From IMG/VR virus record IMGVR_UViG_3300028394_000266, positions 1 to 27,435 of that record: a stretch of DNA of 27,435 bases; one strand, given 5' to 3'. The translations under genes and the position numbers were made by a program. This DNA is from a virus. The notes beneath the pieces are model-generated. The model was not told the DNA's origin. It made no database searches and saw nothing but the letters and a program-made list of their open reading frames with translations. Below, piece after piece: positions 181-27,150 of this stretch. The stretch's first letter is position 1, and every line of letters begins with the position of its first letter.

Positions 181-988
181 GATTTCCGGTAAGAGTGCGA
201 TAAGGCTCTACAGGCTCGATATACTTCTTATATTTGAAACGAACATAGTTATATTCGCCAGATACTGTAACGGCATCGTCAACTGGATCCCATGTGCTAG
301 CATTAACGACAACTGTATTAACTAGTGTCCATTTTACATCACCTGCATTACTCTTATTGGCGGTGACATAGATTAATACATTACCGTTAAATCCTGTTTT
401 AGGATATATTTCACATGTGATTGAGCGTGTTGGTGCGTCTTCATAATCTTCGTTTATTCTAGTGCCAAACTGTCCAATCTCACTAAAATAGGCGTTGGCA
501 TCAAACTCATAATTGAATACGTTAAGCACATCTGTAAAGTCTGGAGCTTCATTATACCCGTTTAACAAATCACAAGTGGCAACTAGACCAAACTGACTAT
601 CTGAATATAAAGGATAATCTACGGCATTCTTAGTCATTTTAACTGCAACACCAAGTTGTTGAGGATCAATCTTAGCAATAGTCTCTGCAGGTATTACTAC
701 TGACATAGTTCCTACAAGATAGTTACCGTTCATATCTCGTGCCATTGTACCAGCTACTTCAAATAGTTTTTTACGATCGTAATCAAAGAACATGGCTGTG
801 ATAGTTGCGCCACTAACGTCATAACGTCGTTGGTCTGAGTTTCTAATCTCAAACTCTATAGTATTTCTAATACCTTTGTATAACTTAATTGTTCTTGTGT
901 ACACTTGTCTAAACTCCGTGGTAAATCCCGCCATATCTGTCGTGACCGTGATCCGATTTGGTACTAAATAAAATTGAATTTTTTGCAT
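155..988 (-). CDS. probable virion structural protein (277 aa, conserved in marine T4-like phages)
   Basis: The start MQKIQFYLVPNRITVTTD and the closing LDKIIIRN fit a family of marine T4-like phage structural proteins that I recall from general knowledge but could not check by search. The protein is rich in beta-type residues and aromatic/polar alternation (for example YRTLTGNLDKIIIRN), with no enzymatic motif, signal peptide or membrane segment. A late-type box, CATAAATA, lies 33 nt upstream, which supports late expression and a virion role. No Shine-Dalgarno is visible before the ATG, so the start is less certain; the next Met is at residue 19 (MAGFTTEFR). It may be a fibre-associated or baseplate protein. 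Confidence 0.6.
   Translation of the reverse strand: MQKIQFYLVPNRITVTTDMAGFTTEFRQVYTRTIKLYKGIRNTIEFEIRNSDQRRYDVSGATITAMFFDYDRKKLFEVAGTMARDMNGNYLVGTMSVVIPAETIAKIDPQQLGVAVKMTKNAVDYPLYSDSQFGLVATCDLLNGYNEAPDFTDVLNVFNYEFDANAYFSEIGQFGTRINEDYEDAPTRSITCEIYPKTGFNGNVLIYVTANKSNAGDVKWTLVNTVVVNASTWDPVDDAVTVSGEYNYVRFKYKKYIEPVEPYRTLTGNLDKIIIRN
963..970 (+). promoter_or_regulatory. candidate late promoter box for the plus-strand gene at 1027
   Basis: ACTAAATA on the plus strand matches the NNTAAATA form found before many late genes in this window. It lies inside the 5' end of the minus-strand structural gene and would give a leader of about 50 nt before the ATG at 1027. One box in AT-rich DNA can be chance. 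Confidence 0.4.
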
Positions 989-1021
989 TGGACTATTTTT
1001 TCACTTATGAAGGTCATACAG

Positions 1022-1029
1022 TATTTATG
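1022..1029 (-). promoter_or_regulatory. late promoter box for the 277-residue structural gene
   Basis: The minus strand reads CATAAATA, a close match to the T4 late consensus TATAAATA. It is 33 nt upstream of the ATG at 988. The box physically overlaps the ATG of the plus-strand gene at 1027, so the two divergent genes share these bases. Confidence 0.55.
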
Positions 1030-1401
1030 GTAAAACTTACGGAAGAAATCAGAGAAAACTTCCCTTTTATATCGGTTGTTCACTATGGCGGCATTGAATA
1101 TGTCGGTGTAGTAATTAATCAAGATCAATATGTAACTAGCATCTATAACTACGAAGAGTTACGTACTGAATCGGATCGTAAGGTCTTTTTAGAACTAGGA
1201 GAAGTATGGTGGTGGGAATCAAATCGTACTATTCCAATCAGCATATTTCTAAAGAGCGAAATGGAAGCATTTCGCTACAGCATTATGACCATGAATACTA
1301 AGGATGTTACCGTAGTATTTGGGCCAACTGTTAATCTACATAATATGAGTATCAAACGTGTAAAACGTAAAATGATACAGCTAGTACGTCCTAAGCGTTA
1401 A
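1027..1401 (+). CDS. conserved phage protein of unknown function (124 aa)
   Basis: One of only two plus-strand genes. The open frame extends upstream to a TTG at 958, but that extension lies inside the opposite gene; the ATG at 1027 gives the natural start MVKLTEEIRENFPFISVV. The protein is compact, with a run of three Trp (GEVWWWESNR) and a basic tail (IKRVKRKMIQLVRPKR) suggesting nucleic-acid contact. I recall similar proteins in marine T4-like phages but no known function. It converges on the minus-strand DnaE-like gene, and the two stop codons share bases (1398-1401, TTAA). No terminator lies between them, so its transcript would run antisense into the replication operon. Confidence 0.7.
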   Translation: MVKLTEEIRENFPFISVVHYGGIEYVGVVINQDQYVTSIYNYEELRTESDRKVFLELGEVWWWESNRTIPISIFLKSEMEAFRYSIMTMNTKDVTVVFGPTVNLHNMSIKRVKRKMIQLVRPKR

Positions 1402-1976
1402 TTATACCCGTAACTAACGCCTTCGCAAATTAAATTCATCTGTACTACTATTGCCATTGCATAGGCTACAGCATGGGCTTTCTTAAAATAGTAATCGTCA
1501 TTCACGGGTTTCGTCCACACTTCCTTCATAATCGTCATCCAATCCTGCCCAATCAGGTGCCTCTTGGCAGGCCGAATCATAGCGAGGACCGCACTTAATT
1601 GTTCCACGGAAGTAGGGCAAGTCTTCTTCAGTACCGTCCCATGCCCGTTCAAATGAAATAACAGATTCACAAACTCGTCTTGTAAAAGTAAATCCCATAG
1701 TGGCTCAGTCTCCATTAATTGTTTCAAATGTTCTTCACTACGTACACCTTCATAAACTCCCACATTTAGAAAGTCTATTTTAAAATACCCTCTTTCTTCT
1801 GCTGTCTTGTATTCTATTGTTGATAAGTTATTGCGCTCGTCTTTAGGTATACTAGTAACATATATACCAGTATTATGAGGCTTTACTTGTCCGTTGTCAA
1901 TCCTACTAGCAGTAGTATGATTAAATAGTTCAAGCGCCTTGGTTCTGTCACTAAAGTCAATGTCAATATCAGGCAT
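1398..1976 (-). CDS. miniature DNA polymerase III alpha (DnaE)-like protein (192 aa)
   Basis: The protein strings together hallmark motifs of C-family polymerases in the correct order. PDIDIDF (residues 2-8) matches the palm motif with two catalytic Asp. HNTGIYV (34-40) resembles the H.aGvvi motif. FKIDFLNV (65-72) matches K.DFLGL, which carries the third catalytic Asp. LLFHLNGHG (105-113) followed by CPTSVEQLSAVLAMIRPAK (120-138) matches VFQ.ES.GM...PTSFEDL.AL.RPG. KKAHAVAYA (165-173) matches NKSHA.AYA. Normal DnaE is over 1000 residues, so fingers, PHP, tau-binding and OB domains are absent or reduced to stubs. Whether it polymerises, binds DNA or clamp, or is a repurposed relic is unknown. 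It is the last gene of the early operon, overlapping its upstream neighbour by 8 nt, and meets the plus-strand gene tail to tail. The motif reading is mine; the function is open. Confidence 0.75.
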   Translation of the reverse strand: MPDIDIDFSDRTKALELFNHTTASRIDNGQVKPHNTGIYVTSIPKDERNNLSTIEYKTAEERGYFKIDFLNVGVYEGVRSEEHLKQLMETEPLWDLLLQDEFVNLLFHLNGHGTVLKKTCPTSVEQLSAVLAMIRPAKRHLIGQDWMTIMKEVWTKPVNDDYYFKKAHAVAYAMAIVVQMNLICEGVSYGYN

Positions 1977-2163
1977 CGTTACCGTCCTTGTCCCATGTGG
2001 CTATCTTCTTCCATTGCAGTTTTCCTTCAGTTGTATACGGTACATACACTTCTCCAGTCTCTTTATCTGCCAACATCCACTTTCCAGGGCACTTGGTTTT
2101 AATAGTTAGTGTCTTGGCTTTTTTCAATTCTTCTGCTGTTGTTCCGTCTAGCAGTTTTCTCAT
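1969..2163 (-). CDS. small conserved phage protein (64 aa)
   Basis: A small protein starting MRKLLDGTTAEELKKAKTL, then a segment with CPGKWMLADKETGEVY and KLQWKKI. One Cys, several Trp and alternating charged/hydrophobic residues suggest a small beta fold. It resembles small unassigned ORFs of marine T4-like phages, from memory only. Coupling supports it as a real gene: its ATG overlaps the upstream stop as ATGA (2160-2163) and its own stop lies within the start of the DnaE-like gene. The tight link to that gene suggests a shared job, but no function can be assigned. Confidence 0.65.
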   Translation of the reverse strand: MRKLLDGTTAEELKKAKTLTIKTKCPGKWMLADKETGEVYVPYTTEGKLQWKKIATWDKDGNDA

Positions 2164-2897
2164 AATGATCCTTCATCGATTACCTGTTTAACTAAAGTTA
2201 AGTCTGCCGGGTAAGTTCTAAAACGTTTAGCCCAAAAGTCAGGATTCATTACTTCAAAAATAATATTTAACTGTTCATCGTTAAATTTACTTAACATACA
2301 CCGTCCACTTTCACTGTTCAATACTAACCACGGACTAATTTTACCGTCTTTAATATCATACACTGACCGATTTAAACTGACATATTTAAAATAGTGGTTC
2401 CATTGGCTGTTGTTAATATCGGCCCAATCCATCATTGTGGCAATACTTCGTTGTAGTGCTACTTCAGCAGGTTCTTTCTTGATTAGGTCTAATACATACT
2501 GATAATATAGTTCTTCTCTGCACCAATGGTCAAGTTTAACTCCACTAGTAACTACAAAATCAATATATCGATCTAAGTACAACGGATTAACATTGTGTAA
2601 GAAACTACCAAATTTTACAAATGCATTGTAGTATTGACTCTTGGCAAATTCCTCATAAGTTTTTGTAGTTTTTGCCTTTTGACTTAGTTGAAAAAATCTA
2701 ACATAAGTTTGATAACCTAGCTGAACATGTTTTTCAGTTTTGGCCATGTGCCGTCTTTTTTGTTCGCACATATGTACTGCCAGTGTGGATTCCTTAACAT
2801 AGGCACTGTTACAATATTGACATACATATGGCTTGTCTACGGCACTCAACTTAAATTTTATTCCTTTGTGTTGTTTTTCAAATACATCTAAATTCAT
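2160..2897 (-). CDS. zinc-finger protein of unknown function (245 aa)
   Basis: Near the N-terminus is a single C2H2/C2HC-type finger: C26 and C29 (YVCQYCNSAY), H42 and C44 (VHMCEQKRRH), with H50 as an alternative ligand, followed by a basic patch. The rest is a mostly helical, aromatic-rich domain (for example WCREELYYQYVLDLIKKEP and MMDWADINNSQWNHYFKY) with no enzymatic motif I recognise. It sits in the early operon between a possible clamp-loader subunit and two small genes, with ATGA overlaps on both sides, so it is probably translated in step with them. A DNA- or protein-binding role in replication or transcription is an inference from the finger and the context. Confidence 0.7.
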   Translation of the reverse strand: MNLDVFEKQHKGIKFKLSAVDKPYVCQYCNSAYVKESTLAVHMCEQKRRHMAKTEKHVQLGYQTYVRFFQLSQKAKTTKTYEEFAKSQYYNAFVKFGSFLHNVNPLYLDRYIDFVVTSGVKLDHWCREELYYQYVLDLIKKEPAEVALQRSIATMMDWADINNSQWNHYFKYVSLNRSVYDIKDGKISPWLVLNSESGRCMLSKFNDEQLNIIFEVMNPDFWAKRFRTYPADLTLVKQVIDEGSL

Positions 2898-3361
2898 AAC
2901 AGCTTTTTAATTTCTGCCTCACTCATCCCCAGATCTCTAGCTAACTCTTTAGCCTCTGCTGTGGTCATAAGCGTTGCTTGTAATTCTAATTCGTCGTCTT
3001 TCATTTGTGGATATACTGACTCTAAAAACTTGTATATTTTTCCATCACCGGACTTTTTCTTGTGTCCAATCCATTCATGAAAATAAATCTTTTTCTCATC
3101 ATTGCCGCACATAGCAAGCAAATACCATAGTAGTTTAGGATGTTTACTTAAACTAAAATAGTGTTTATTAAAGTATTCATTTGTTTTAAAAACTGCTAGT
3201 TCTTGTACATCTCTGTTGCTAGTTTTAATAGAACTAGCATATCTATTCAATAAGAAAAAACTCACCTGCTTTCGTTGTTCTTCGTCAAGGTCGTTCCATA
3301 GATCTCTTGCGCCCATATCAATTGCGCCAGTTAAGTCTTTGATTGCTAGTTTGTCACTCAT
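2894..3361 (-). CDS. possible clamp-loader small subunit (gp62-like), 155 aa
   Basis: A helical protein with a conserved-looking core (FFLLNRYASSIK, NEYFNKHYFSLSKHPKLLW, FHEWIGHKKK) and a C-terminal helix ending GMSEAEIKKLL. Layouts of this kind (NRY, then N..YN, then a HP.LLW helix, then a lysine-rich stretch) are annotated in T4-like phages as the small clamp-loader subunit, gp62, which works with ATPase gp44 to load the gp45 clamp. I assign it from memory of that pattern and from its place in the replication operon; there is no ATPase motif, as expected for gp62. The large subunit gp44 is not in this window. The gene overlaps both neighbours by 4 nt (ATGA). Confidence 0.5.
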   Translation of the reverse strand: MSDKLAIKDLTGAIDMGARDLWNDLDEEQRKQVSFFLLNRYASSIKTSNRDVQELAVFKTNEYFNKHYFSLSKHPKLLWYLLAMCGNDEKKIYFHEWIGHKKKSGDGKIYKFLESVYPQMKDDELELQATLMTTAEAKELARDLGMSEAEIKKLL

Positions 3362-3631: not shown

Positions 3632-4138
3632 TTACAATAACTTATAGTGATCGATAACTTCGCTTTGACGACTAATATCTTTACAGAAAAATGCACACAT
3701 GGGCTTTTCGCCTTCGTGTAATGGAACACTGAGTAATTGATTATTTTTCATCTTTGGAAAATACCATTTAACATCATTGTAGACGTTTACAATTTCAATG
3801 TTTGCATAACCGTGTCTAAAAGCACTTAGGGGATTAAACAAAAATGCTTCAAAGCCTCTATCATTTAAACTAGTAAGTGGTAACACTTCAACTTCACTAC
3901 CGCATTCACTGTCCCCTACTGCTATACTCCAATCAACCGGCATAGTAACTTCATGTCCGCCAATATTTAAAACCATTGCAGGACTATTAAAACTCTCTAA
4001 GAATATTAACGGTATAAAAAAGAAATCGGGATTTTGTGGATCACTGTTATCTAGTACGCTAAAACGTATATCATCTTCTAATTCGTCGGGCATTTTAGAC
4101 AGATCAAATGTCTTGTCGTCTAGTGTTAAAATCATCAT
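3632..4138 (-). CDS. conserved phage protein of unknown function (168 aa)
   Basis: An acidic, mostly beta protein starting MMILTLDDKTFDLSKMP with a central GGHEVTMPVDWSIAVGD segment, then NDRGFEAFLFNP and a Cys-containing end (MCAFFCKDIS). No catalytic motif is recognised. The start is preceded by TAAGGAAAAATAATAATAAT, a Shine-Dalgarno with a long spacer. The same AATAAGGAAAAATAA string precedes the 2OG-oxygenase gene, so the two leaders look copied or under common selection. It is part of the early operon. Confidence 0.6.
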   Translation of the reverse strand: MMILTLDDKTFDLSKMPDELEDDIRFSVLDNSDPQNPDFFFIPLIFLESFNSPAMVLNIGGHEVTMPVDWSIAVGDSECGSEVEVLPLTSLNDRGFEAFLFNPLSAFRHGYANIEIVNVYNDVKWYFPKMKNNQLLSVPLHEGEKPMCAFFCKDISRQSEVIDHYKLL

Positions 4139-4155
4139 ATTATTATTATTTTTCC

Positions 4156-4785
4156 TTATTGTTGTTCTTTTGGAACTAGTATAGCATCAAATGCCATCAC
4201 AGTCCTATGCCCAATTCCTTTCCACGGATAGACAGTATGCGGTAAGTGACTTGGGAATACTACAACAGTACCGGGGGTAGGTGTGTATTTCCAAACATCA
4301 TTCATTATAAATTTACTAATATCTTTTGTCGCCGGCAATCTAAATAATATTTGACTGTCGCTAGGTTTGCTATTTTCTTCTAGCTCCGGTGCGCTAATAT
4401 ACATATTTCCGCTAAGGTGGCCGCCTGGGTGTGTATGCATTTCCTGGTAGTCACCTTCGTACTGTCGAATAGTCCAAATACTAACTACTTTAGGTTTGCA
4501 ATGTTTTAGCTCTTCAGTGCCTGATTGGCTAGATATAATCTCCATGTATCCTTGACAGATAGTTTCTAACCATGTGACTAACCAATCAACACCTAAGTTA
4601 ATAGAATTAGGATAAACTTGAATTTGCTGGCCGCCACGGATGCTTATCATTGGATTATCTGCATCATTTAAATCAGGCCGACCGTGTAACGATTCTGCTA
4701 GGCTATATATCTTACTAAACTCAACAGGGGGGATTTGATCAATAGCTAATACTGTTGGTTGAAAATAGGCTACTTTTAATGACAT
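4156..4785 (-). CDS. 2OG-Fe(II) oxygenase-like protein (209 aa)
   Basis: The C-terminal half has the double-stranded beta-helix signature of phage 2-oxoglutarate/Fe(II) dioxygenases. H117 and H119 lie in EMHTHPGGHLSG, followed by a beta strand (NMYISAP); the distal His is in PSHLPHTVYPW (H183), followed by R194 in HRTVMAFDA, the usual 2-oxoglutarate anchor. The canonical second ligand is Asp; here HTH offers His instead, as in some phage members, so activity is likely but unproven. Such enzymes are common in marine T4-like phages and their substrates (protein, nucleic acid or small molecule) are unknown. It lies between uvsW and small early genes, with the Shine-Dalgarno string AAGGAAAAATAA directly before the ATG. 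Confidence 0.8.
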   Translation of the reverse strand: MSLKVAYFQPTVLAIDQIPPVEFSKIYSLAESLHGRPDLNDADNPMISIRGGQQIQVYPNSINLGVDWLVTWLETICQGYMEIISSQSGTEELKHCKPKVVSIWTIRQYEGDYQEMHTHPGGHLSGNMYISAPELEENSKPSDSQILFRLPATKDISKFIMNDVWKYTPTPGTVVVFPSHLPHTVYPWKGIGHRTVMAFDAILVPKEQQ

Positions 4786-4798
4786 TTATTTTTCCTTA

Positions 4799-6259
4799 TT
4801 ATTGCCACGTTACTTTTTCTAAAGTAAACGGATACTTTGCTTCTTTATAAAACTTTTTGCGTTCAGTAAGATGACGCTTGGCATACTTGCATGAACTTGT
4901 TAGATCCCAGATCTGTACGAAGTCTTTGTCTTCTGCTTTTCTAATACCTCGCCCAATGCTTTGTATAACTCGGACAAAGCTCTTTCCGGGTTCCAAAAGA
5001 ACCAGATTAAAAATGCGGGGGATATTAAGACCCACAGCGGCCACACCGTAAGTCGCCACAATAACCTTATTAGTGCTTGTTTTAATTTCATCATATTCTT
5101 CTTTACGTTCAGTTAATTTTACATCCCCACTGACGAACACAGCATCCGGAATATGATCAATAATAAACTTTCCAGACTCAATTCTATTGACTAGAATCAA
5201 GGTGTTACCACTTTCTTTAATGTTACTGCACAGGTTAGAAATGTATGTCATTCTATCACTGTCTGTTACCAAATATTTCAATTCGTCCTGGTAACTACGA
5301 AATTCTTGTACGTCTACCATTTGCACAACGTTCACATGACATTGACTTAGCACACCTTTTTCTTGTAAGGCGTGTGCAGAAATTCTGTTAATGACAGGAC
5401 CAATAGTAGCTAAAATACTTTGAAATTCAATGTCTGCTTTAGGAACTGTGCCCGTTAGTCCCCAGCGTATTGGAGCATTGGCAAAGTTCATTGATAGTAG
5501 TTTTTTCAGTACTTCAGCTTTGGCTTGATGTACTTCGTCAATAATAACACATACTACTCCTTCAATAAACTCTGCTAGAGAGAGTGCTTCATTTTCAGCA
5601 CCTTTTTTCTCTAAAATATTCAAACTTTGCCATGTGCAGATAGTGTGCGTCCTGCCTATTTCTTTACGGTCGCCAAAGTAAACACCAACATCTAAACCCA
5701 CGTTAACATAGTCTTCTTCAGTTTGAACTACTAGACTCTTGTTAGGTACAATGACCAGTGTACGTCCATAAGGTTCACATAATTTGCTCAATGTAGCAGT
5801 GATAATGGTCTTACCAGCACCAGTTGCTAGCTCTTGTAGACCTTGTGGATGTTCCATGAACCCGTTAACTGCCGCAAGCTGATAGTCTCGCAATACAATA
5901 GGCTGTCCTTCAATTGGATGTCCTTTAGGCCATACTTTGCCTTGATCGGCCCAATAATTTTCTGTGATCTTTTCAAACTCAAATTTGTGATTTTCTCGTA
6001 AATCTTCTACTTCTGCAACATCGACACCACACTCATCAAGGATAGGTAGTATGACGTCTAAGTGATTGAGATAACCATTACCACCAAGGCCAAAGAAGGT
6101 GGTTGTACCGTCCCATCTACCTAGTTTATACTGAGGCATGTGTCTTGCATAAGGCAATTCAAATTTTAATTTGTTAGAAATTTTACGCCTAACTTCAACA
6201 CTTAGGCCTTCAATTTTTATATTGACTTCATCTCTAATGATTATTTTACAACTGGGCAA
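4799..6259 (-). CDS. uvsW: UvsW-like SF2 DNA/RNA helicase
   Basis: A complete SF2 helicase of 486 residues, close to T4 UvsW in size. The N-terminal domain has the UvsW-type run YARHMPQYKLGRWDG (38-51). Motif Ia region RDYQ follows, then Walker A ATGAGKT (145-151), DEVH (241-244), motif III TGT (269-271), and motif VI QSIGRGIRK (433-441). In T4, UvsW unwinds R-loops and branched DNA, helps fork regression and switches replication from origin to recombination mode. The start appears to be TTG (MPSCKIIIRDEV), preceded by a good Shine-Dalgarno (AAGGGAG) and lying inside the last 14 nt of the upstream 415-residue gene, so translation is probably coupled. The next ATG would remove conserved N-terminal residues. 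Confidence 0.95.
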   Translation of the reverse strand: MPSCKIIIRDEVNIKIEGLSVEVRRKISNKLKFELPYARHMPQYKLGRWDGTTTFFGLGGNGYLNHLDVILPILDECGVDVAEVEDLRENHKFEFEKITENYWADQGKVWPKGHPIEGQPIVLRDYQLAAVNGFMEHPQGLQELATGAGKTIITATLSKLCEPYGRTLVIVPNKSLVVQTEEDYVNVGLDVGVYFGDRKEIGRTHTICTWQSLNILEKKGAENEALSLAEFIEGVVCVIIDEVHQAKAEVLKKLLSMNFANAPIRWGLTGTVPKADIEFQSILATIGPVINRISAHALQEKGVLSQCHVNVVQMVDVQEFRSYQDELKYLVTDSDRMTYISNLCSNIKESGNTLILVNRIESGKFIIDHIPDAVFVSGDVKLTERKEEYDEIKTSTNKVIVATYGVAAVGLNIPRIFNLVLLEPGKSFVRVIQSIGRGIRKAEDKDFVQIWDLTSSCKYAKRHLTERKKFYKEAKYPFTLEKVTWQ

Positions 6260-7493
6260 TTTGTCTTGCTCCCTTAACTTTATTATTTCTTACTACGATT
6301 GAATTGTTATAATAATACACAGTAGACAGGTCGTCTAAAAATGCTGACGTTTTTCCAAAGTCATGATTGCTTAACATTATAGCAGTGTTAGGATGCCAGT
6401 CTGCTTTTAACAAAGGCTTTGGTATTTTATTTTTTGCAATGAATACAACCTTTGTGTCTGGCCCTATATAATTATTTAAGTGGTTATCCTTGACCATTTG
6501 GTTAAATTCGTTGTAATTTTTTTGTCCATTATCTATTCTAAAAAATACAGTAATCTCACTATTGGAAATTTTACCAGATAATGCTGAAAAAATACCGGCA
6601 ACTTGCTCTAATGCTTTATGATCATCATCAACTAATACCAACACCGGCCACTGATTTAAATTTTCAATGACTTCAATTAAATCAATAACCGGAACTGTCT
6701 CGGGACTAATTCTAAATCTAGTTGACGAATTGACTAGTATGTTTTTTGTTAAATCGTTGGGTGCAATTTTTCCAATTTTTTCAAGAATTTTTGCATCTTT
6801 ATGGTAGATACCACATTTTTTTAATTTGTCAATATAGCTGAGGAAGTTGCCTTTTATGTCATTGGAGATTTTTGTCTCAATATAGTCAACACAATGTTTG
6901 TTGGCATTTCTTATGACCACTTGGTCATCCTCTAAATCTACGTATGGGACAAATTTTTCAGGATTTTCTTGGATTTTTTCAATTTCTTTAAAAATCATTA
7001 AAAGTTCTGGATCAATGATAAAGTCACTGTCTTGAAATTCTGATACTACTACAGCAATATTGATTTCATTGAACGGAAATTCTTTTACTGTTCCGTGCTC
7101 GGTTATCGAACCCACTAATTTTTCCTGAATTTTTGGCCATTTTTCCTGAAATGTCTTGGCTCTAATACCTTTTACTGAAATTAACTTTTTATTTTCATCG
7201 TCAGTTGATATTAAAATCATTTGTGAGCGATCAATTTCTCGCAAAGGCAACCTTAATGATTTTGTTGCCAACAGCGAGGTCACGTCAATGTTGTTTTTTT
7301 CCAAATTTGACTGGTATTTTTTGATTTTTTTCAGGGATAGCTCAAGTTGACGATCAGTCAGTGCTAGTCCATTGGCAACTTGCCGGCCAATACTTTTTAT
7401 AAGATTTTTTTCGTTGTAGTCTATTCGAATATTAATAATTCGTGGACGTACACCGGCTAAAATTTCAATGGCATCTTCAACTGTTTGTGTCAT
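6246..7493 (-). CDS. unknown 415-aa protein leading the uvsW operon
   Basis: The largest unassigned early gene. It starts MTQTVEDAIEILAGVRPRI and has a lysine-rich helical N-terminal third (LELSLKKIKKYQSNLEKN). The C-terminal half alternates beta strands and helices: PVLVLVDDDHKALEQVAGIF, then KVVFIAKNK, NTAIMLSNHDFGKTSAFLDD and the closing VYYYNNSIVVR. The pattern recalls a nucleotide-binding or helicase-type fold, but no Walker A or B is present, so no enzyme activity can be claimed. It is the first gene of the early operon, with a near-perfect sigma-70 promoter whose -10 ends 7 nt before the ATG and no Shine-Dalgarno, and it overlaps uvsW by 14 nt. The coding DNA is more AT-rich and lysine/asparagine-rich than its neighbours. 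A partner of UvsW or an accessory replication/recombination protein is possible. Confidence 0.7.
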   Translation of the reverse strand: MTQTVEDAIEILAGVRPRIINIRIDYNEKNLIKSIGRQVANGLALTDRQLELSLKKIKKYQSNLEKNNIDVTSLLATKSLRLPLREIDRSQMILISTDDENKKLISVKGIRAKTFQEKWPKIQEKLVGSITEHGTVKEFPFNEINIAVVVSEFQDSDFIIDPELLMIFKEIEKIQENPEKFVPYVDLEDDQVVIRNANKHCVDYIETKISNDIKGNFLSYIDKLKKCGIYHKDAKILEKIGKIAPNDLTKNILVNSSTRFRISPETVPVIDLIEVIENLNQWPVLVLVDDDHKALEQVAGIFSALSGKISNSEITVFFRIDNGQKNYNEFNQMVKDNHLNNYIGPDTKVVFIAKNKIPKPLLKADWHPNTAIMLSNHDFGKTSAFLDDLSTVYYYNNSIVVRNNKVKGARQIAQL

Positions 7494-7572: not shown

Positions 7573-8025
7573 TTAAAGAGAAGCGTCTTCCATACCTGCC
7601 ACTCTAAGTTTTATAATGTTGGTGATTTGCCATTGCTTTTGGTCAAGTGCCTTGGTAATGCCTAACCATTTGTTGCGTAATAAGGCAAATTCATTGATAA
7701 TTTTTTCCATATCAACAACATCTGCTTCACCTTCAACATATTTTTCAACGTCTCTACTACTTAGTGCGCGAGCATAGCTTTCTAGGTATTTTCTAAAATG
7801 ACTACTTTTTAATCGACGCAATTCTATGTTTAAATATTCTAAAATTGCCTCAATTTCCTGTAACTGTGAAAATCGTTGTTCCACAACACCGGGCATACTG
7901 GCTGCGGCTTTTTCTAAATTTCCTGTTATACGGCATTCGTATCTTGCAGAAATTAATTCAGCCTCAAAATATTCCACGGCGTCTGGAATGTTACTAATAT
8001 CCTTAGCAACTTTGTTATACCACAC
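7573..8025 (-). CDS. conserved protein next to uvsX (150 aa), coiled-coil-like
   Basis: A helical, charge-rich protein starting (M)WYNKVAKDISNIPDAVEYF, with a heptad-like middle (FSQLQEIEAILEYLNIELRR) and a conserved-looking stretch KYLESYARALSSRDVEKY. The start codon is GTG, preceded by GAGGA built from the last Glu codons of the upstream gene; its stop is 2 nt away. I recall homologues beside uvsX in marine T4-like phages. The position invites comparison with the recombination mediator UvsY, but the sequence does not resemble T4 UvsY as I know it, so I leave it unnamed. It is the last gene of the block before the terminator. Confidence 0.75.
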   Translation of the reverse strand: MWYNKVAKDISNIPDAVEYFEAELISARYECRITGNLEKAAASMPGVVEQRFSQLQEIEAILEYLNIELRRLKSSHFRKYLESYARALSSRDVEKYVEGEADVVDMEKIINEFALLRNKWLGITKALDQKQWQITNIIKLRVAGMEDASL

Positions 8026-8027
8026 AG

Positions 8028-8279
8028 TTATTCCTCATCGCTGTCGTAATCTTCACTTTCGTAATCGATTTCGTCCTCGCCATCCCAGTCATCTAGATAA
8101 TATTCAATGGCAGCATCAAGGTCTTCATCACCACCAATGGCGGCTTTGAGTACGTGATCACTTACACCGTTATCAGCTAGGATGTCAATGTACTTGCTTG
8201 CGACAGTTTCAATGGCTTTTTTGTCAAAAAACTCTTTCATGCCTGTCCAGATATCAATAATATGGTCTTCAGTCAACAT
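8028..8279 (-). CDS. small acidic protein next to uvsX (83 aa)
   Basis: Starts MLTEDHIIDIWTGMKEFFDKK and ends in a strongly acidic tail (WDGEDEIDYESEDYDSDEE). Its start lies within the last 11 nt of uvsX, so translation is probably coupled. The acidic tail resembles tails that mimic DNA or contact single-strand-binding proteins, but no function is known. I recall similar small proteins immediately after uvsX in marine T4-like phages, which supports it as a real gene. Confidence 0.7.
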   Translation of the reverse strand: MLTEDHIIDIWTGMKEFFDKKAIETVASKYIDILADNGVSDHVLKAAIGGDEDLDAAIEYYLDDWDGEDEIDYESEDYDSDEE

Positions 8280-9357
8280 TTTCTAAGATCTCTCCCGTGT
8301 CTTGATCAATAGTTGGTTTTACATTTTTGTTAGCAACAGCTTGGTTAAACTCAAGCATGATCTTATCCAGACCACCCTCTTCATTACGGTCCCATTCCTT
8401 GCGATACATTTTAATTTCTGTACCATCTATTGAAACGTATTTAAGTCTATTACCATCTTTTACCAAGATACCCTTAGCCTCACATAAGTCAACCATACCG
8501 CTATATGGGCTCATGCCTGTTTCATAAGGAATCTCAACTTGAACTGACTCGAAAGGTTTAGCATAACGTGTTTTCATGATCTTACATGCGGCACGAATAC
8601 CATTTACTGTTGTAGTCTTATTACCATCAGCATCTGTTTTTAATTTTAGTTTACGCATGGCAATAACAATACTTGATGCATAGATAAAGCCTTGTCCGCC
8701 ACTAATCTTGTCATCTGGATCGAACATGTCCTGGCTTGCGTATGTGTGATTAGTACAAACTAGTCCAACATTATAGCTACCAAACATGTTTACACAGTTA
8801 CGAACAAGACTTGTAAGTGCTTTAGGTTTACGACCCATATCACCTTTCATTTCGCCTGCTTCGAACTGATTTACGTCTGTTGGTGTTAACAACATGCCCA
8901 ATGAATCAATTACAAATAATACCTTAGGACGAGTTGCTTCGTCCATTGTTTTGTATTCTTTCATGAATTCACTGATAGTTTTTGCCACATCATCAATCAT
9001 AGCCATGTTAAGTTTTAACAACTTATCTTCACTAGTATCAACACCTAGTGCGTGTAACCATGCTTCATCAAGAGCATTTTCACTGTCAACTAGTACAACA
9101 TAAATGCCTTGTTGTTGTGCGGCTTTGATCAAGTTACCGGAACAAATATATGATTTTCCTGCACCGCTTTCGCCTGCAAGTACAGTAACCTTACCCAACG
9201 GAACACCTTTGTTAAAGTCACTGCTAATTAGATAGTTTAAGGCATAATTGCCTGTACTGATCCAGTCTGTTGGATCATTAAAACCGACACCAAGCCCATC
9301 AATACTTTTTGTCAGAGTCTTTCTGAATTTTGAAAGGTCAAATGCTTTCGTAGCCAT
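8269..9357 (-). CDS. uvsX: UvsX, RecA-like recombinase
   Basis: A full-length 362-residue RecA-family strand-exchange protein. Walker A is AGESGAGKS (61-69), the catalytic Glu region follows (VDSENALDEAW), Walker B is KVLFVIDSLG, and the loop-2 region includes NHTYASQDMFDPDDKISGGQG. T4 UvsX forms filaments on single-stranded DNA for recombination-dependent replication and repair, with gp32 upstream in this window as its natural partner. A clear Shine-Dalgarno (AAGGAGAACGT-ATG) precedes the start. The gene follows gp32 after a C(UUCG)G hairpin and overlaps the small acidic gene by 11 nt. Confidence 0.97.
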   Translation of the reverse strand: MATKAFDLSKFRKTLTKSIDGLGVGFNDPTDWISTGNYALNYLISSDFNKGVPLGKVTVLAGESGAGKSYICSGNLIKAAQQQGIYVVLVDSENALDEAWLHALGVDTSEDKLLKLNMAMIDDVAKTISEFMKEYKTMDEATRPKVLFVIDSLGMLLTPTDVNQFEAGEMKGDMGRKPKALTSLVRNCVNMFGSYNVGLVCTNHTYASQDMFDPDDKISGGQGFIYASSIVIAMRKLKLKTDADGNKTTTVNGIRAACKIMKTRYAKPFESVQVEIPYETGMSPYSGMVDLCEAKGILVKDGNRLKYVSIDGTEIKMYRKEWDRNEEGGLDKIMLEFNQAVANKNVKPTIDQDTGEILENVD

Positions 9358-9413: not shown

Positions 9414-10385
9414 TTACTGCTTTTGACGATTACGAATCATCGCAAGGATGTCTTCTGCACGACCACTACCACTTGCTGGAGCGGCTTCTGCTTTTGGAGC
9501 AGATTGTACAGGAGCACTAACACGAGGTGTTGGCTCGTCTGGATCGATGTTATCGATTGCAGAGCTAGTTGCCTTGTTTGGATCACCAGTTGCGGCGCCC
9601 ATACCTGCTGGACGGAAATATTGTCCCCATGCTTCTTTGTCAAACGGCTCGCCGTCAACACTTGCTTGGAACATTTCCTTAATAACCTTAAGTTCAACAT
9701 CACCTGGCTTCTTAGGCAAGAAGTCGTTTAAGTTAAACAAACCATGTGCCTTAACTGAGTCAAGTTCTGCATCAGTTAATGGACGCTCACGACGGCTCCA
9801 CTTACTTGTAGAGTAGTCTGCGTATCCACCTTTACTTGTCTTGACAAGTTTAAAGTCAACGCCACGTGCAAAGTCTGTTGGCAATTCTTCCAACTCTGGA
9901 TCAACCAATGCTGATTTGATCAACTGGAAAATCTGAGGTCCGATGATGAATCTACGAACTGGATTTTCTGGGTGTCCATCTTCCTTCAAGCCGTCTTCAA
10001 CAACAAAACCTTGGAAAATGTAACTACGCTTTTTCCAATATTTACGACCCATGTCTTCTAAAGACTTGTCTTTAAACCAACCGCGAACTTCGCTAAGGAT
10101 TGGACATGTTTCGCCGTACATTTCCATACAAGGTACTTGCACTTGTACTGGACGTGAGTCAGTTTCACCTTTGATTCCTGCGAATGGCAGTTTAATCATT
10201 AGGCGTTCTGCCCAGAAAAATGTATTATCGGAATTGCCGTCTGGTAAAAATCTTACTGTAGATTCTTTGCCCTGCTCGAGGTTCCAGAACGGATAGATTG
10301 CGTTGTCTCCAACGGGGCGATCACCGCCGCTTGATTTTGTTTCTTGTGCCTGAAGTTTTGCACGAATTTCTGCTAATGTGGCCAT
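9414..10385 (-). CDS. gp32: gp32, single-stranded DNA-binding protein
   Basis: 323 residues, starting MATLAEIRAKLQAQE; the T4 protein has 301. The core has the gp32 landmark YPFWNLEQGKESTVRFLPD, a Cys-containing zinc-type region (CMEMYGETC), and the OB-fold-like segment KRSYIFQGFVVED and NPVRRFIIGPQIFQLI. The C-terminal third is a flexible Ala/Pro/Ser linker ending GRAEDILAMIRNRQKQ, probably the protein-interaction tail. gp32 coats single-stranded DNA in replication, recombination and repair and works with UvsX. A clear Shine-Dalgarno (AGGAGAAACATT-ATG) precedes the start. Upstream lie a 19-bp dyad, a terminator and a late-type box, so control appears layered. Confidence 0.95.
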   Translation of the reverse strand: MATLAEIRAKLQAQETKSSGGDRPVGDNAIYPFWNLEQGKESTVRFLPDGNSDNTFFWAERLMIKLPFAGIKGETDSRPVQVQVPCMEMYGETCPILSEVRGWFKDKSLEDMGRKYWKKRSYIFQGFVVEDGLKEDGHPENPVRRFIIGPQIFQLIKSALVDPELEELPTDFARGVDFKLVKTSKGGYADYSTSKWSRRERPLTDAELDSVKAHGLFNLNDFLPKKPGDVELKVIKEMFQASVDGEPFDKEAWGQYFRPAGMGAATGDPNKATSSAIDNIDPDEPTPRVSAPVQSAPKAEAAPASGSGRAEDILAMIRNRQKQ

Positions 10386-23883: not shown

Positions 23884-26800
23884 TTAACCTAACCTAGTAT
23901 AACCGTAATTCACAATCACAGGGCCTACACTGTTGTTGGTGATACCAAAGGTAAAGGTCCGAGATGCATTTCCCACAGTGGTTCCTCCTGTAGTTATTTG
24001 ACCGGCAGTGCCCGTAATCTGAGCGGGCATAGTGTCGAGCACTAACATGTTTCCCGTATCGTAATACCAACCGTATTGGCTTCCTAGGACAGGAACATTT
24101 ACATTAGTCACAACCACTGTGGCTGTATATGTAACTATACCATTGTCACATGTTCCATTCACCCATAGGGTATAGGTGCCTGGTCCAGGCACACTGAAGT
24201 TTTTAGTGTTGGCACCTGTGGCTAATGTCCAACTGTTTGTATAGGATGCAAACTTGCTTGCGGTAACTGTTCCATTAGTTGGCGCAGACAAGTTGCCACC
24301 TACGCCAAATGTCCAGCCTTGTGAATTGTCCACATCGGTCATTATCACTATGTCAGCATTGTCTGATTGGAGTGAGAATGCACCCCAGGTTTGTGTTCTA
24401 ATAATACTTTGATCCGGCAACTTTGTTGTACCATCTGTGCCAAAGGTCCATTCGTTTTTATTACCACTAAAATCAGTAGTTAATTTTATATCTTGTGGAG
24501 TTACTTCAAACTGTGTAGTTCTATCATTGTCAAGGTCTACCTGACGATTTTGTACAACAAAACTTACACCGCCTTGAGCGTCAGGATTGAAAACTTGAAC
24601 GGCTAAATCATTTCCTTCTTGGCCGAGAATATCTCCGGGAACAGTTAAGTTGCCAGTATTACCAAGATGCCATTCGTTGCTATTTGAAACAAGAGCTATG
24701 TAACCATCAACGCCGATTGAGGTAAGTTTTATTGCGCCGCCTGACTCGCCATCTGCGGTGATTCTCATTTCTGCTAAATTACCTGCACGATGCGTTGATA
24801 TCGAATCTATTGGAGTACCACCTAATGAGTATCTTTGATAGGTTAATCCGTTGTCAGCACTATTTCCACCAATAGTAACACCGTGACCATCTAATGCGAC
24901 TCGCATTACCTCTAACGGAGTAGTAGGACCAACTGTAATAAAACCACTTGAATGAATAGCAGACTGACCACTGTTTGTAGGCAATGTTAGATTACCATCT
25001 GTGCCAAAGGTCCAATTTTTGGTATCAGCTGATAGTTTGATAGTTGCGGTAGATTTAACAGTTGATGGATATTCTGGACCTGGACCTGTAGCGAAATTAG
25101 CAGACCACTGACCCCCGCCAAGGTCGTTCACAACGCCAAGTGTCAAGGTAAATGTATATCCTGGAATACCGTGATCAGCTTGGGTAAAGTTCCAAGAATC
25201 GCCTGATTGATAACCTGTATTGTGATCCCATACTGTGTCGCCACCACTGATCATTGTTTCATAACCATCACCGTTTGCAAGAGGTTGGAATATCACTGTA
25301 TAATGCCAAGCATTACCGCCGCCGCCTGCGTGATAAACAGGCACTAGGTTTGCTGTAAATGTTATAGGTGCTGATGCGGGTAGTGTCAAACTACCGGTTG
25401 CGCCAAAGTTCCAAGACTGACCATATGCAGAAGATAGTGAAACTGACTTGGTGTTGGCATCATAACTGTCACGTATGGCAATGAGTGAGGCTCTCATGTC
25501 ATTATAGAATTGAACTGTCATTAGTGGCAGAATAATCAATGTTGCACCAGGAGTACTTTGTAGAGTATAGGCAGTGGCTAAGAAGTCAATATAGCCTTGA
25601 GCAGTGGTGCCAGTTGGATACCAGTCGACCATTGGCCAACCGCCAGGCGGTACAAGACCGTTGTTAATTGTGGCTGTTATATAGCCACCACGAATAAATT
25701 CCCATCCAGCCAATGCTGAGTCATAGGCCGCAGTGCTTGGGCGTAGTTCGCCGCTGTTTGGTAGTGTCAAAGTACCATCTGTGCCAAATGTCCATAAAGA
25801 TAGATTAGACAAGATATCAATATTCTTGGCGCTCTGTATGCGGGCATTGTCGCTTTCAGTATTGGCCGCACCAGGTAGATTTAACTGCCCTGTTGTAGCC
25901 AATGCCACGGTATATGTGCCGTTGACCAGTGTACTTGTTGTGGCAAATCCACCGCCGCCTTGGACAGATTGGAAACCCAATGTGCCAGTACCATCGCTAT
26001 ACAAGTACCCTGTTGCAGTTGTACTAAACCATGCTGGCTTGTTGACAACATCAGTCCAGTTGCCAGTTCTTGCAACTGTGGCAAGGTTGTTGGTTAGGCT
26101 GTTGGCGATTAGTGTTGCAACTGAAGCTGTAGTTAGATATCCCTGTGATGTAACATAACTCTGTGTTGCGTAGTTTGTTAGTGAGTTGGCAATCAGGCCT
26201 GTAACTGTAGCCGTAGTGACAAAATTAGTCAAGCTATTTGCTATCAATGATGTTACAGTGGCAGTAGTTACCCCACTAACAAAATTGCTGAGACTGTTGG
26301 CAATTAATGCTGTTACAGTGGCGGTACTTACCCCACCTGATGTATCAATTACATACTGATAACTTAACGTGCCATTGCCGTCACTATATAGATAACCAGT
26401 AGCTGTGGTACTGACCCACGAGGGCTTGTTGACAACATCATTCCAGTTGCCAGTTCTCGCAACGGTTGCTAGGTTATTGGTCAAGCTATTTGCTATCAGT
26501 GCCGTTACTGTGGCAGTACTAACTCCACTGACAAAATTACTTAGACTGTTGGCTATCAACGATGTCACAGTGGCTGTAGTCACTCCATTGACAAAATTAG
26601 TCAAGCTATTTGCTATCAGTGCCGTTACTGTGGCTGTACTTACTCCACTGACAAAATTACTTAGACTGTTGGCAATTAATGCCTTTACTGTAGCAGTACT
26701 TACTCCGCCCGATGTATCAATTACATTCTGAAAAGTCAGCGTACCACTACCATCGCTGTACAAATAGCCAGGTGTTGTTGTGTTGAACCATGCGGGCTTA

Positions 26801-27150
26801 TTAACCACATCGTTCCAGTTACCGCTGGTTGCTACTGCGGAAAGTTGCGGAGCATTTGTAATGATACCGTAGTCAACTGTTGTAAGATAACCCCTGTCAT
26901 TTGTAAACGCAGATACTAGGGTAGGTATAACTGGTATTGTTGGTTTACCGCTTAGGTCAGCATACAGTCCACTGAATGCCACACTATTAAAATTAGGCTT
27001 GCCAGTTACCTCGCTCCAGCTGGGAATGACCGCAGTTTTTATCGAACCTAAGGTAACCTTGTAATTGCTCCCACTAGATACTACTGGAAATACAGTATCG
27101 CCGGGTGGACTTGTTAAAGATTGTAGTTGACTAAATTTTATTGATGACAT
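23884..27150 (-). CDS. large repeat-built tail fibre protein (1088 aa)
   Basis: The N-terminus MSSIKFSQLQSLTSPPGDTV leads into the fibre-type elements WSEVTGKPNF and YADLSGKPTIP. Then come three repeat families. Eight copies of a roughly 20-residue unit (TATVTALIANSLTNFVSGV type) lie in the first third. Three copies of a longer unit contain GNWNDVVNKPAW and GYLYSDGSGTL. Six copies of a W-F-G-G-L-P motif (WTFGTDGTLTLP type) are spread through the middle and C-terminal part. The C-terminal 120 residues (FSVPGPGTYTLWVNGT to FTFGITNNSVGPVIVNYGYT) look like a compact tip domain for receptor binding. There is no chaperone or autoprotease motif. The protein follows a subtilisin-like protease gene by only 3 nt, suggesting co-expression. 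Confidence 0.9.
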   Translation of the reverse strand: MSSIKFSQLQSLTSPPGDTVFPVVSSGSNYKVTLGSIKTAVIPSWSEVTGKPNFNSVAFSGLYADLSGKPTIPVIPTLVSAFTNDRGYLTTVDYGIITNAPQLSAVATSGNWNDVVNKPAWFNTTTPGYLYSDGSGTLTFQNVIDTSGGVSTATVKALIANSLSNFVSGVSTATVTALIANSLTNFVNGVTTATVTSLIANSLSNFVSGVSTATVTALIANSLTNNLATVARTGNWNDVVNKPSWVSTTATGYLYSDGNGTLSYQYVIDTSGGVSTATVTALIANSLSNFVSGVTTATVTSLIANSLTNFVTTATVTGLIANSLTNYATQSYVTSQGYLTTASVATLIANSLTNNLATVARTGNWTDVVNKPAWFSTTATGYLYSDGTGTLGFQSVQGGGGFATTSTLVNGTYTVALATTGQLNLPGAANTESDNARIQSAKNIDILSNLSLWTFGTDGTLTLPNSGELRPSTAAYDSALAGWEFIRGGYITATINNGLVPPGGWPMVDWYPTGTTAQGYIDFLATAYTLQSTPGATLIILPLMTVQFYNDMRASLIAIRDSYDANTKSVSLSSAYGQSWNFGATGSLTLPASAPITFTANLVPVYHAGGGGNAWHYTVIFQPLANGDGYETMISGGDTVWDHNTGYQSGDSWNFTQADHGIPGYTFTLTLGVVNDLGGGQWSANFATGPGPEYPSTVKSTATIKLSADTKNWTFGTDGNLTLPTNSGQSAIHSSGFITVGPTTPLEVMRVALDGHGVTIGGNSADNGLTYQRYSLGGTPIDSISTHRAGNLAEMRITADGESGGAIKLTSIGVDGYIALVSNSNEWHLGNTGNLTVPGDILGQEGNDLAVQVFNPDAQGGVSFVVQNRQVDLDNDRTTQFEVTPQDIKLTTDFSGNKNEWTFGTDGTTKLPDQSIIRTQTWGAFSLQSDNADIVIMTDVDNSQGWTFGVGGNLSAPTNGTVTASKFASYTNSWTLATGANTKNFSVPGPGTYTLWVNGTCDNGIVTYTATVVVTNVNVPVLGSQYGWYYDTGNMLVLDTMPAQITGTAGQITTGGTTVGNASRTFTFGITNNSVGPVIVNYGYTRLG
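26085..26715 (-). repeat. 60-bp coding repeats inside the fibre gene, with a 120-bp higher-order unit
   Basis: The DNA carries 60-bp units encoding the 20-residue repeat; two examples are 26221-26280 and 26281-26340. A two-unit block starting at 26481 is repeated at 26601, exactly 120 bp apart, with only two mismatches over the first 75 bases, pointing to a recent duplication. The block is split by one copy of the longer GNWNDVVNKP unit around 26345-26460. It is coding sequence, not a CRISPR array. Confidence 0.85.

Follow-up and report, generated by a model that had tools for sequence, protein, structure and literature searches.

A small gene of T4-like jumbo phages matches one half of the DNA polymerase III alpha palm and probably encodes a subunit of a two-protein minimal polymerase

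The DNA analyzed here, positions 1 to 27,435 of the IMG/VR virus record IMGVR_UViG_3300028394_000266 (hereafter, the window, 27,435 nucleotides in full), is read as part of a T4-like jumbo phage core and carries on its minus strand a short gene (1398..1976; ATG start, 192 amino acids [aa]; PHROG 11778), which we refer to as palm-C and which may equally be called a mini-DnaE. An initial annotation, made from the sequence alone, had described its product as a miniature of the DNA polymerase III (Pol III) alpha subunit in which all three catalytic aspartates are kept, and had seen the presence of a C-family piece in a T4-like replication operon as unexpected. It is proposed that the gene probably encodes the C-terminal subunit, comprising the Mg2+-binding part of the palm and the fingers, of a two-protein, minimal, PHP-less C-family DNA polymerase whose partner, palm-N, would be encoded far away in the same phage genome.

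The plus-strand frame of 1398-1976 contains many stops, and the coding strand is the minus strand. Translation confirmed the six motif groups in the order originally listed, namely PDIDIDF (residues 2-8), HNTGIYV (34-40), FKIDFLNV (65-72), LLFHLNGHG (105-113), PTSVEQLSAVLAMIRP (121-136), and KKAHAVAYA (165-173), within a protein of 192 residues, and placed the three aspartates at D5, D7, and D68, as had been reported. The protein begins MPDIDIDF, and a start of MPDID[IL]DF from ATG is found in all 80 of the closest loci (the L variant in two of them); in most of these the open frame extends 1-41 codons upstream, so some of them may begin earlier, and the RaK2-like members bear approximately 8-16 additional N-terminal residues.

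The window protein matched PHROG 11778, labeled "DNA polymerase," with an E value of 2.4e-68 and PHROG 405, a full-length "DNA polymerase" family of 1190 positions, with an E value of 3.2e-7, and the motif resemblance therefore exceeds chance. Searches with the single palm-C sequence were weak (E values of 0.012-0.063 to NCBIfam DnaE models and 0.33 to the PDB), and the Pfam search of the single window protein returned no DnaE, PHP, or finger domain (PF17657) match. The palm-C family profile matched the Mycobacterium tuberculosis-type DnaE chain 5lew with a whole-sequence E value of 0.0013, by way of colinear pieces of which none was significant singly, while profile-profile comparison (hhalign) of the palm-C family with eight DnaE proteins yielded a probability of 92.9 and an E value of 3.6e-7 across residues 49-137, pairing palm-C K66, D68, L70, and P136 with E. 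coli DnaE K553, D555, L557, and P640. A hit of the family profile to the tRNA-hydroxylase 8fhc (E value, 0.0074) was dismissed as unrelated.

Relatives of palm-C were detected by tblastn in 63 of 50,697 phage records, with an identity always below 60%; those among the matches listed include RaK2-, 121Q-, and CBB-like phages, PA5oct/Paride, Atu_ph07, Phosso, SCTP-2, XacN1, and others. A scan in which the SCTP-2 protein served as query returned no relatives. The labels attached to the gene in phage records vary, and include "DNA polymerase," "DnaE-like DNA polymerase III alpha," "putative membrane protein," and "hypothetical protein."

In an alignment of the window protein with 70 relatives that are 37-82% identical to it (derived from 72 nonredundant sequences, with L102 excluded because its start codon was not found), D3, D5, D7, H34, G37, P44, K66, D68, L70, Y75, H83, L87, W94, P121, R135, P136, K138, W154, F164, H168, Y172, and N181 are invariant in 71/71 sequences, and the Asp triad is thus not lost in any aligned relative. 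Eleven of these positions (D3, D5, D7, H34, K66, D68, R135, P136, K138, H168, and Y172) are also invariant in a second set of 48 palm-C sequences, five named phages included, which was obtained from 139 palm-C loci by removing 4 truncated ones, adding the window (136 rows), and discarding sequences of ≥80% identity to one already retained. The invariant residues of an eight-member DnaE alignment (E. coli DnaE and seven phage DnaE proteins) include D401, D403, D405, H511, G514, K553, D555, L557, P640, F756, H760, and Y764. The corresponding codons in the window, all on the minus strand, lie at 1956..1970 for the DxDxD residues D3, D5, and D7 (E. coli DnaE D401, D403, and D405; assigned by motif and structure range), 1866..1877 for the HxxG motif H34-G37 (DnaE H511-G514; assigned by motif, being outside the hhalign range), 1773..1781 for K66-I67-D68 (DnaE K553 and D555; hhalign pairing), 1563..1574 for R135-P136-A137-K138 (R135/P136 paired with DnaE R639/P640 by hhalign), and 1461..1487 for F164-Y172 (DnaE F756, H760, and Y764; assigned by motif).

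The ratio of nonsynonymous to synonymous substitution rates (dN/dS), calculated for the window together with 64 loci from among the 80 closest, has a median of 0.14 and a range of 0.04-0.35 across 112 nonindependent pairs, and palm-C is under purifying selection. Such values bear on the suggestion that the gene is a remnant, that is, a decaying pseudogene of a full-length DnaE. Palm-C is certainly short beside DnaE, as a remnant would be; however, the low dN/dS, the invariant catalytic residues, and the existence of at least 547 IMG/VR relatives oppose this explanation, to which we attach almost no weight.

The AlphaFold2 model of palm-C is of high predicted quality (mean predicted local distance difference test [pLDDT] score, 91.5; predicted template modeling score [pTM], 0.80) and places DIDIDF (residues 4-8) and KIDFLN (67-71) in predicted strands. 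A Foldseek search of the PDB with this model returned Pol III alpha in each of the top eight rows (best E value, 3.6e-4), and VIA-align returned 14 top entries representing Pol III alpha or PolC (Z scores of 9.7-5.9; root mean square deviation [rmsd], 3.1-3.9 Å; 177-188 of the 192 residues aligned), three of which are titled only "DNA polymerase" and were taken as PolC by residue numbering; the first row that is not Pol III had a Z score of 3.3. The best superposition was with 3e0d_A (Z score, 9.7; rmsd, 3.5; 188/192 residues aligned). Kinship to the DnaE palm and fingers, as first suspected from the motifs, is thus upheld by profile match and model superposition alike. On E. coli DnaE the model covers residues 400..781, the last of which we take to lie inside the fingers, and the structural alignment reaches there despite the missing PF17657 match. 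As modeled, palm-C has the C-family palm fold carrying the catalytic Asp triad, and has the second half of that palm only.

Likeness to bacterial DnaE and PolC (PDB 2hnh, 3e0d, and 5lew) accordingly extends to the palm/fingers fold and to the DxDxD, KxD, HxxG, RP, and FxxxHxxxY motifs, with the GS motif residing in the partner protein. Palm-C nevertheless has 192 residues to the 1160 of DnaE and a D7-D68 spacing of 60 residues, as opposed to 149 for D405-D555 in DnaE. Nucleotidyltransferases of the Pol-beta fold carry an hG[GS] motif which precedes the DxD motif in the same chain. In palm-C, this motif (RGS in DnaE, upstream of DxDxD) is absent, as the protein starts at PDIDIDF, and it is instead present in palm-N. 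Furthermore, neither the PHP domain PF02811 nor the finger domain PF17657 was matched in any of 12 records of palm-C relatives (0/12 each; positive controls, 14/14 and 10/14, respectively). With the GS motif, the PHP domain, and the finger domain all looked for and not found, palm-C is not classed as a one-chain C-family polymerase, and the description of a whole miniature does not hold: the GS-motif (G-R-G-S) half of the palm is missing from the protein and forms a conserved separate gene in relatives.

The regions that have been retained also speak to the possibility, raised at the outset, that palm-C serves as a decoy or inhibitor and, by mimicking DnaE, sequesters host replisome partners. 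In DnaE, the epsilon subunit docks at the PHP domain, and the clamp and tau bind at C-terminal regions. While palm-C does resemble DnaE in sequence and fold, what it keeps is the catalytic core, with the PHP domain (0/12 records, as above) and the C-terminal regions outside the aligned range, and a decoy need not keep catalytic aspartates or a matched second half; we consider this explanation very improbable.

The missing half is encoded by palm-N. In 12 of 17 palm-C records, PF07733 matched a separate small open reading frame (ORF) over profile positions of approximately 11-98, and all 12 of these ORFs (155-197 aa as called) contain GRGS[SC]V and come to an end 1-3 residues past EF[LF], the matching text of E. 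coli DnaE being GPGRGSGAGS...FERFL. In the palm-N family alignment, residues G134, G136, R137, G138, S139, S140, V141, and S143 do not vary (42/42), and R362, G363, S364, and S368 are invariant in 8/8 DnaE proteins. By hhalign, palm-N residues 98-167 align without gaps to E. coli DnaE 323-392 (probability, 97; E value, 8.9e-11). The palm-N model (pLDDT, 90.9; pTM, 0.69) retrieved 15 Pol III alpha or PolC entries in VIA-align (Z scores of 10.2-6.3; 88-104 of 168 residues; next row, Z score of 2.7), and its residues 61-168 superpose on E. coli DnaE 272..393. Palm-N thus ends at DnaE 392-393 and palm-C begins at approximately 400, which puts the break in the palm after the GS motif and before the catalytic Asp pair.

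The junction was considered in the light of an intein-split gene. This explanation was rejected, as palm-N stops and palm-C starts there, leaving an intein no space. Further DnaE fragments encoded elsewhere were likewise rejected for the PHP and finger Pfam models (0/12), other DnaE regions not having been searched for. A single additional PF07733 match, in record G003, is subthreshold and stop-ridden. The first 60 residues of palm-N (L164:3001-3180) are confidently folded in the model and unmatched to DnaE by structure or profile, and are possibly a phage-specific addition.

The existence of this partner argues against palm-C acting alone, whether as a minimal nucleotidyltransferase or as a DNA-end- or clamp-binding adaptor, both of which had been entertained previously. 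A self-contained and confidently predicted fold and an invariant Asp triad would suit such a function. The GS motif that belongs to a Pol-beta-type fold is, however, missing from the protein and is supplied by the separate, co-occurring gene; since the GS half is a conserved gene of its own, a stand-alone nucleotidyltransferase is unlikely, and we regard the solitary function in general as a poor candidate.

The two halves largely occur together in phage records. Among the best 60 of 63 palm-C records, as compared with the best 60 of 157 and the best 60 of 87 palm-N records, all but one of the records listed with palm-C also carry palm-N (59/60); weak DnaE-like or Pol III alpha rows from Bacillus, Enterococcus, and Bacteroides phages (E values of 1e-3 to 6e-3) were left out of the palm-N rows, as were rows merely repeating an accession. 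The lone palm-C record without palm-N, PP728206, measures 109.5 kb, most relatives being approximately 350 kb, and is probably a partial record; OP752703 shows palm-N only among the matches listed. The distance between the two genes ranges from approximately 30 kb in 121Q, 33 kb in CBB, and 43 kb in Paride to 116 kb in SCTP-2, 182 kb in Atu_ph07, and 224 kb in Phosso. Pairwise protein distances for palm-C and palm-N in 12 genomes are correlated (Pearson, 0.93, with 0/9999 permutations as high; Spearman, 0.68). When palm-C was sought in nine palm-N contigs, it was found in two (matches at 383 and 181 kb).

Based on these observations, it is proposed that palm-N and palm-C dock noncovalently and thereby would rebuild the DnaE palm. 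Palm-N would supply the GRGS turn that holds the incoming triphosphate, D5, D7, and D68 of palm-C would hold two Mg2+ ions, and K66, R135/K138, and F164-Y172 (including H168) would touch the nucleotide and template; the GS turn and the Lys, Arg, and His residues presumably act as their DnaE equivalents do. The split enzyme would keep neither the PHP domain nor, so far as tested, the later DnaE domains, and would probably perform short recombination- or repair-coupled synthesis alongside a B-family (gp43-like) replicase. In agreement with the latter, the oddity of a C-family piece beside a B-family replicase, pointed out in the initial annotation, is borne out in relatives: a B-family polymerase is encoded in 13 of 17 palm-C records, each of at least 209 kb, the four records without one being 133-150 kb in size.

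Several observations weigh against the two-protein polymerase or limit what may be concluded from the evidence for it. The region of DnaE R709/R710, residues which contact the triphosphate, has no obvious counterpart in the split enzyme, and DnaE R390, invariant in 8/8 DnaE proteins, is not kept in palm-N, where E165 stands opposite. With palm-N, Foldseek by itself gave weak matches (best E value, 0.017), though the first eleven rows were Pol III alpha or PolC. PF07733 had no match in 5 of the 17 palm-C records (four contigs of 133-150 kb and one of 280 kb), the palm-N profile matched none of 12 palm-C contigs of 58-280 kb (0/12, a search with no positive control), and palm-C was not found in seven of the nine palm-N contigs (91-213 kb); contigs with just one half are probably fragments. 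The 27-kb window contig itself showed neither a B-family polymerase match nor a palm-N of its own. The correlation of protein distances is a sign of co-inheritance and not of contact, as common inheritance alone would produce it. That the enzyme works in recombination- or repair-linked synthesis, although probable, is deduced from gene families and gene order.

Some of these points would also suit a different reading of the pair, in which the two halves form a scaffold devoid of catalysis and serve to bind DNA or deoxynucleoside triphosphates (dNTPs), for example, as a dNTP sensor or as a regulator of the B-family replicase. Besides the arginines that are not seen or not kept, palm-C is much shorter than DnaE, no activity is known for the split enzyme, and the 13 records with a B-family polymerase possess another replicase. 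Yet a dead scaffold need not keep the Asp triad together with K66 and H168 (48/48 palm-C sequences) and the GRGS residues (42/42 palm-N sequences), and we hold it to be unlikely, if the most serious of the alternatives to an active split polymerase.

The split itself is in print. From comparative genomics, Iyer et al. 2021 (PMC7824862) describes a split minimal DNA polymerase III alpha in group 2.2 jumbo phages, a group in which Atu_ph07 is placed, and proposes that the two pieces reconstitute an active enzyme. The split was inferred independently there and here, and the two accounts agree; the window gene is a further member of this known family (PHROG 11778/11127), from an overlapping phage group and, in the case of the window copy, from an uncultured phage contig. 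What the current analysis adds is the split point, models of both halves, co-occurrence counts, selection, and conserved neighbors. Elsewhere, CBB_328 has been termed a "truncated DNA polymerase III alpha" (PMC5259590) and Atu_ph07 gp316 a predicted alpha subunit (PMC6102473), both of which correspond to palm-N halves (palm-N loci L153, L157, L160, and L161); the palm-C genes of these phages, FDG95_gp287 and FDI40_gp074, are not mentioned beside them in the accessible portions of the two papers. In the Phosso record, both halves are annotated as DnaE-like. As far as their available portions extend, a 2024 paper on a Sinorhizobium jumbo phage lists two "DNA polymerase III subunits," gp197 and gp206, without further analysis, the XacN1 and RsoM2USA papers refer to the epsilon subunit only, and a marine jumbo phage survey reports PF07733 in 51.9% of one group. 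Literature searches, confined to open-licence papers, showed no experimental test of the split Pol III alpha.

It is unusual for a catalytic palm to be divided such that the GS motif falls in one protein and the Asp triad in another, and the arrangement persists in a broad range of giant phages in which a B-family replicase is already present. Cyanobacterial DnaE is also encoded by two distant genes, the products of which are joined via a split intein; the phage halves share the separation of the genes and leave no space for such an element. African swine fever virus Pol X, of approximately 174 aa, is a single polypeptide of the X family, and resembles the phage system as a viral polymerase of very small size within the Pol-beta-like superfamily. 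Should the two phage proteins together be active, their total of approximately 350-410 residues would constitute a very small C-family polymerase and would show the minimum for the fold, and these phages would possess polymerases of two unrelated families that divide the labor between them. The pieces and residues defined here make the idea of a split polymerase, published in 2021, directly testable.

The genes surrounding palm-C in the window, most of them on the same strand, concur with the earlier view that it lies in a replication and recombination setting. Upstream of palm-C on the minus strand are located genes for a UvsW-like DNA helicase (4799..6259), a UvsY-like recombination mediator (7573..8025), a UvsX-like recombinase (8269..9357), and a gp32-like single-strand DNA-binding protein (9414..10385). 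Closer to palm-C, also on the minus strand, are a 64-aa ORF that overlaps the palm-C start (1969..2163; 22/80 close loci), a gene for a 245-aa protein with an N-terminal C2H2-like zinc finger (2160..2897; PHROG 11058), and genes for conserved proteins of 155 aa (2894..3361; PHROG 11758; 78/80 close loci) and 168 aa (3632..4138; PHROG 11279; 50/54 well-flanked relatives). A plus-strand convergent ORF (958..1401; PHROG 11637; 76/80 close loci), whose true start may be the in-frame ATG at 1027, overlaps palm-C by 4 bases at its 3′ end. Across the 54 well-flanked loci, the 245-aa and 155-aa proteins are encoded upstream in 54/54, UvsW in 50/54, and the convergent small gene downstream in 54/54. 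The 245-aa family is found upstream of palm-C in 79/80 close and 57/59 further loci, neighbor counts in the latter, more distant set (L081-L139) being low bounds beyond 3 kb, as 53 of the 59 loci have a flank of ≤3 kb.

The zinc finger of the 245-aa protein matched PDB zinc fingers by profile (E value, 4e-8), has invariant C26, C29, H42, and C44 residues, and is accompanied by a conserved SPW motif; the protein is a candidate DNA-binding partner. A more elaborate version of the split polymerase may be envisaged, in which assembly of the heteromer acts as a switch, the zinc finger protein (2160-2897) is a third, DNA-recruiting subunit, and the active site would be built only where UvsX, UvsY, and UvsW work. 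This extension is speculative and on present evidence doubtful, and, if true, would define an assembly-activated polymerase dedicated to recombination-coupled synthesis. The clamp loader subunit suspected among the neighbors at first inspection found no support: by hhalign, neither T4 gp62 nor T4 gp44 was matched by the 155-aa or the 245-aa family, and all four neighbor families gave probabilities of ≤1% against nine single T4 proteins (including gp62, gp59, gp45, and gp44), a weak test given that one T4 sequence was used for each. PDB profile searches gave nothing credible for the 155-aa and 168-aa families and nothing at all for the convergent family.

Other features of the region were recorded in passing. 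The convergent family (PHROG 11637) has invariant WW and RxxP motifs. A gene resembling 2-oxoglutarate (2OG)-Fe(II) oxygenases (4156-4785, minus strand; PHROG 81), located between UvsW and the 168-aa gene, was found in just 23 of the 54 close relatives with sufficient flanking DNA and is thus a variable operon member. In CBB, an annotated Pol III epsilon-like exonuclease gene adjoins the UvsW-like helicase gene, and 121Q has a "DNA polymerase III" gene at the same place (L084:4730-5575 and L085:2802-3620, just before UvsW); the window bears at this position a 415-aa ORF (6246-7493) without a PHROG match. Beyond the gp32-like gene and on the same strand, the window contains large terminase, head closure protein, and tail sheath and tube genes, and a 1088-aa ORF (23884-27150, minus strand), with many near-repeats of stretches resembling ATVTALIANSLSNFV and WTFGTDGNLTLP, probably encodes a repetitive virion or fiber protein.

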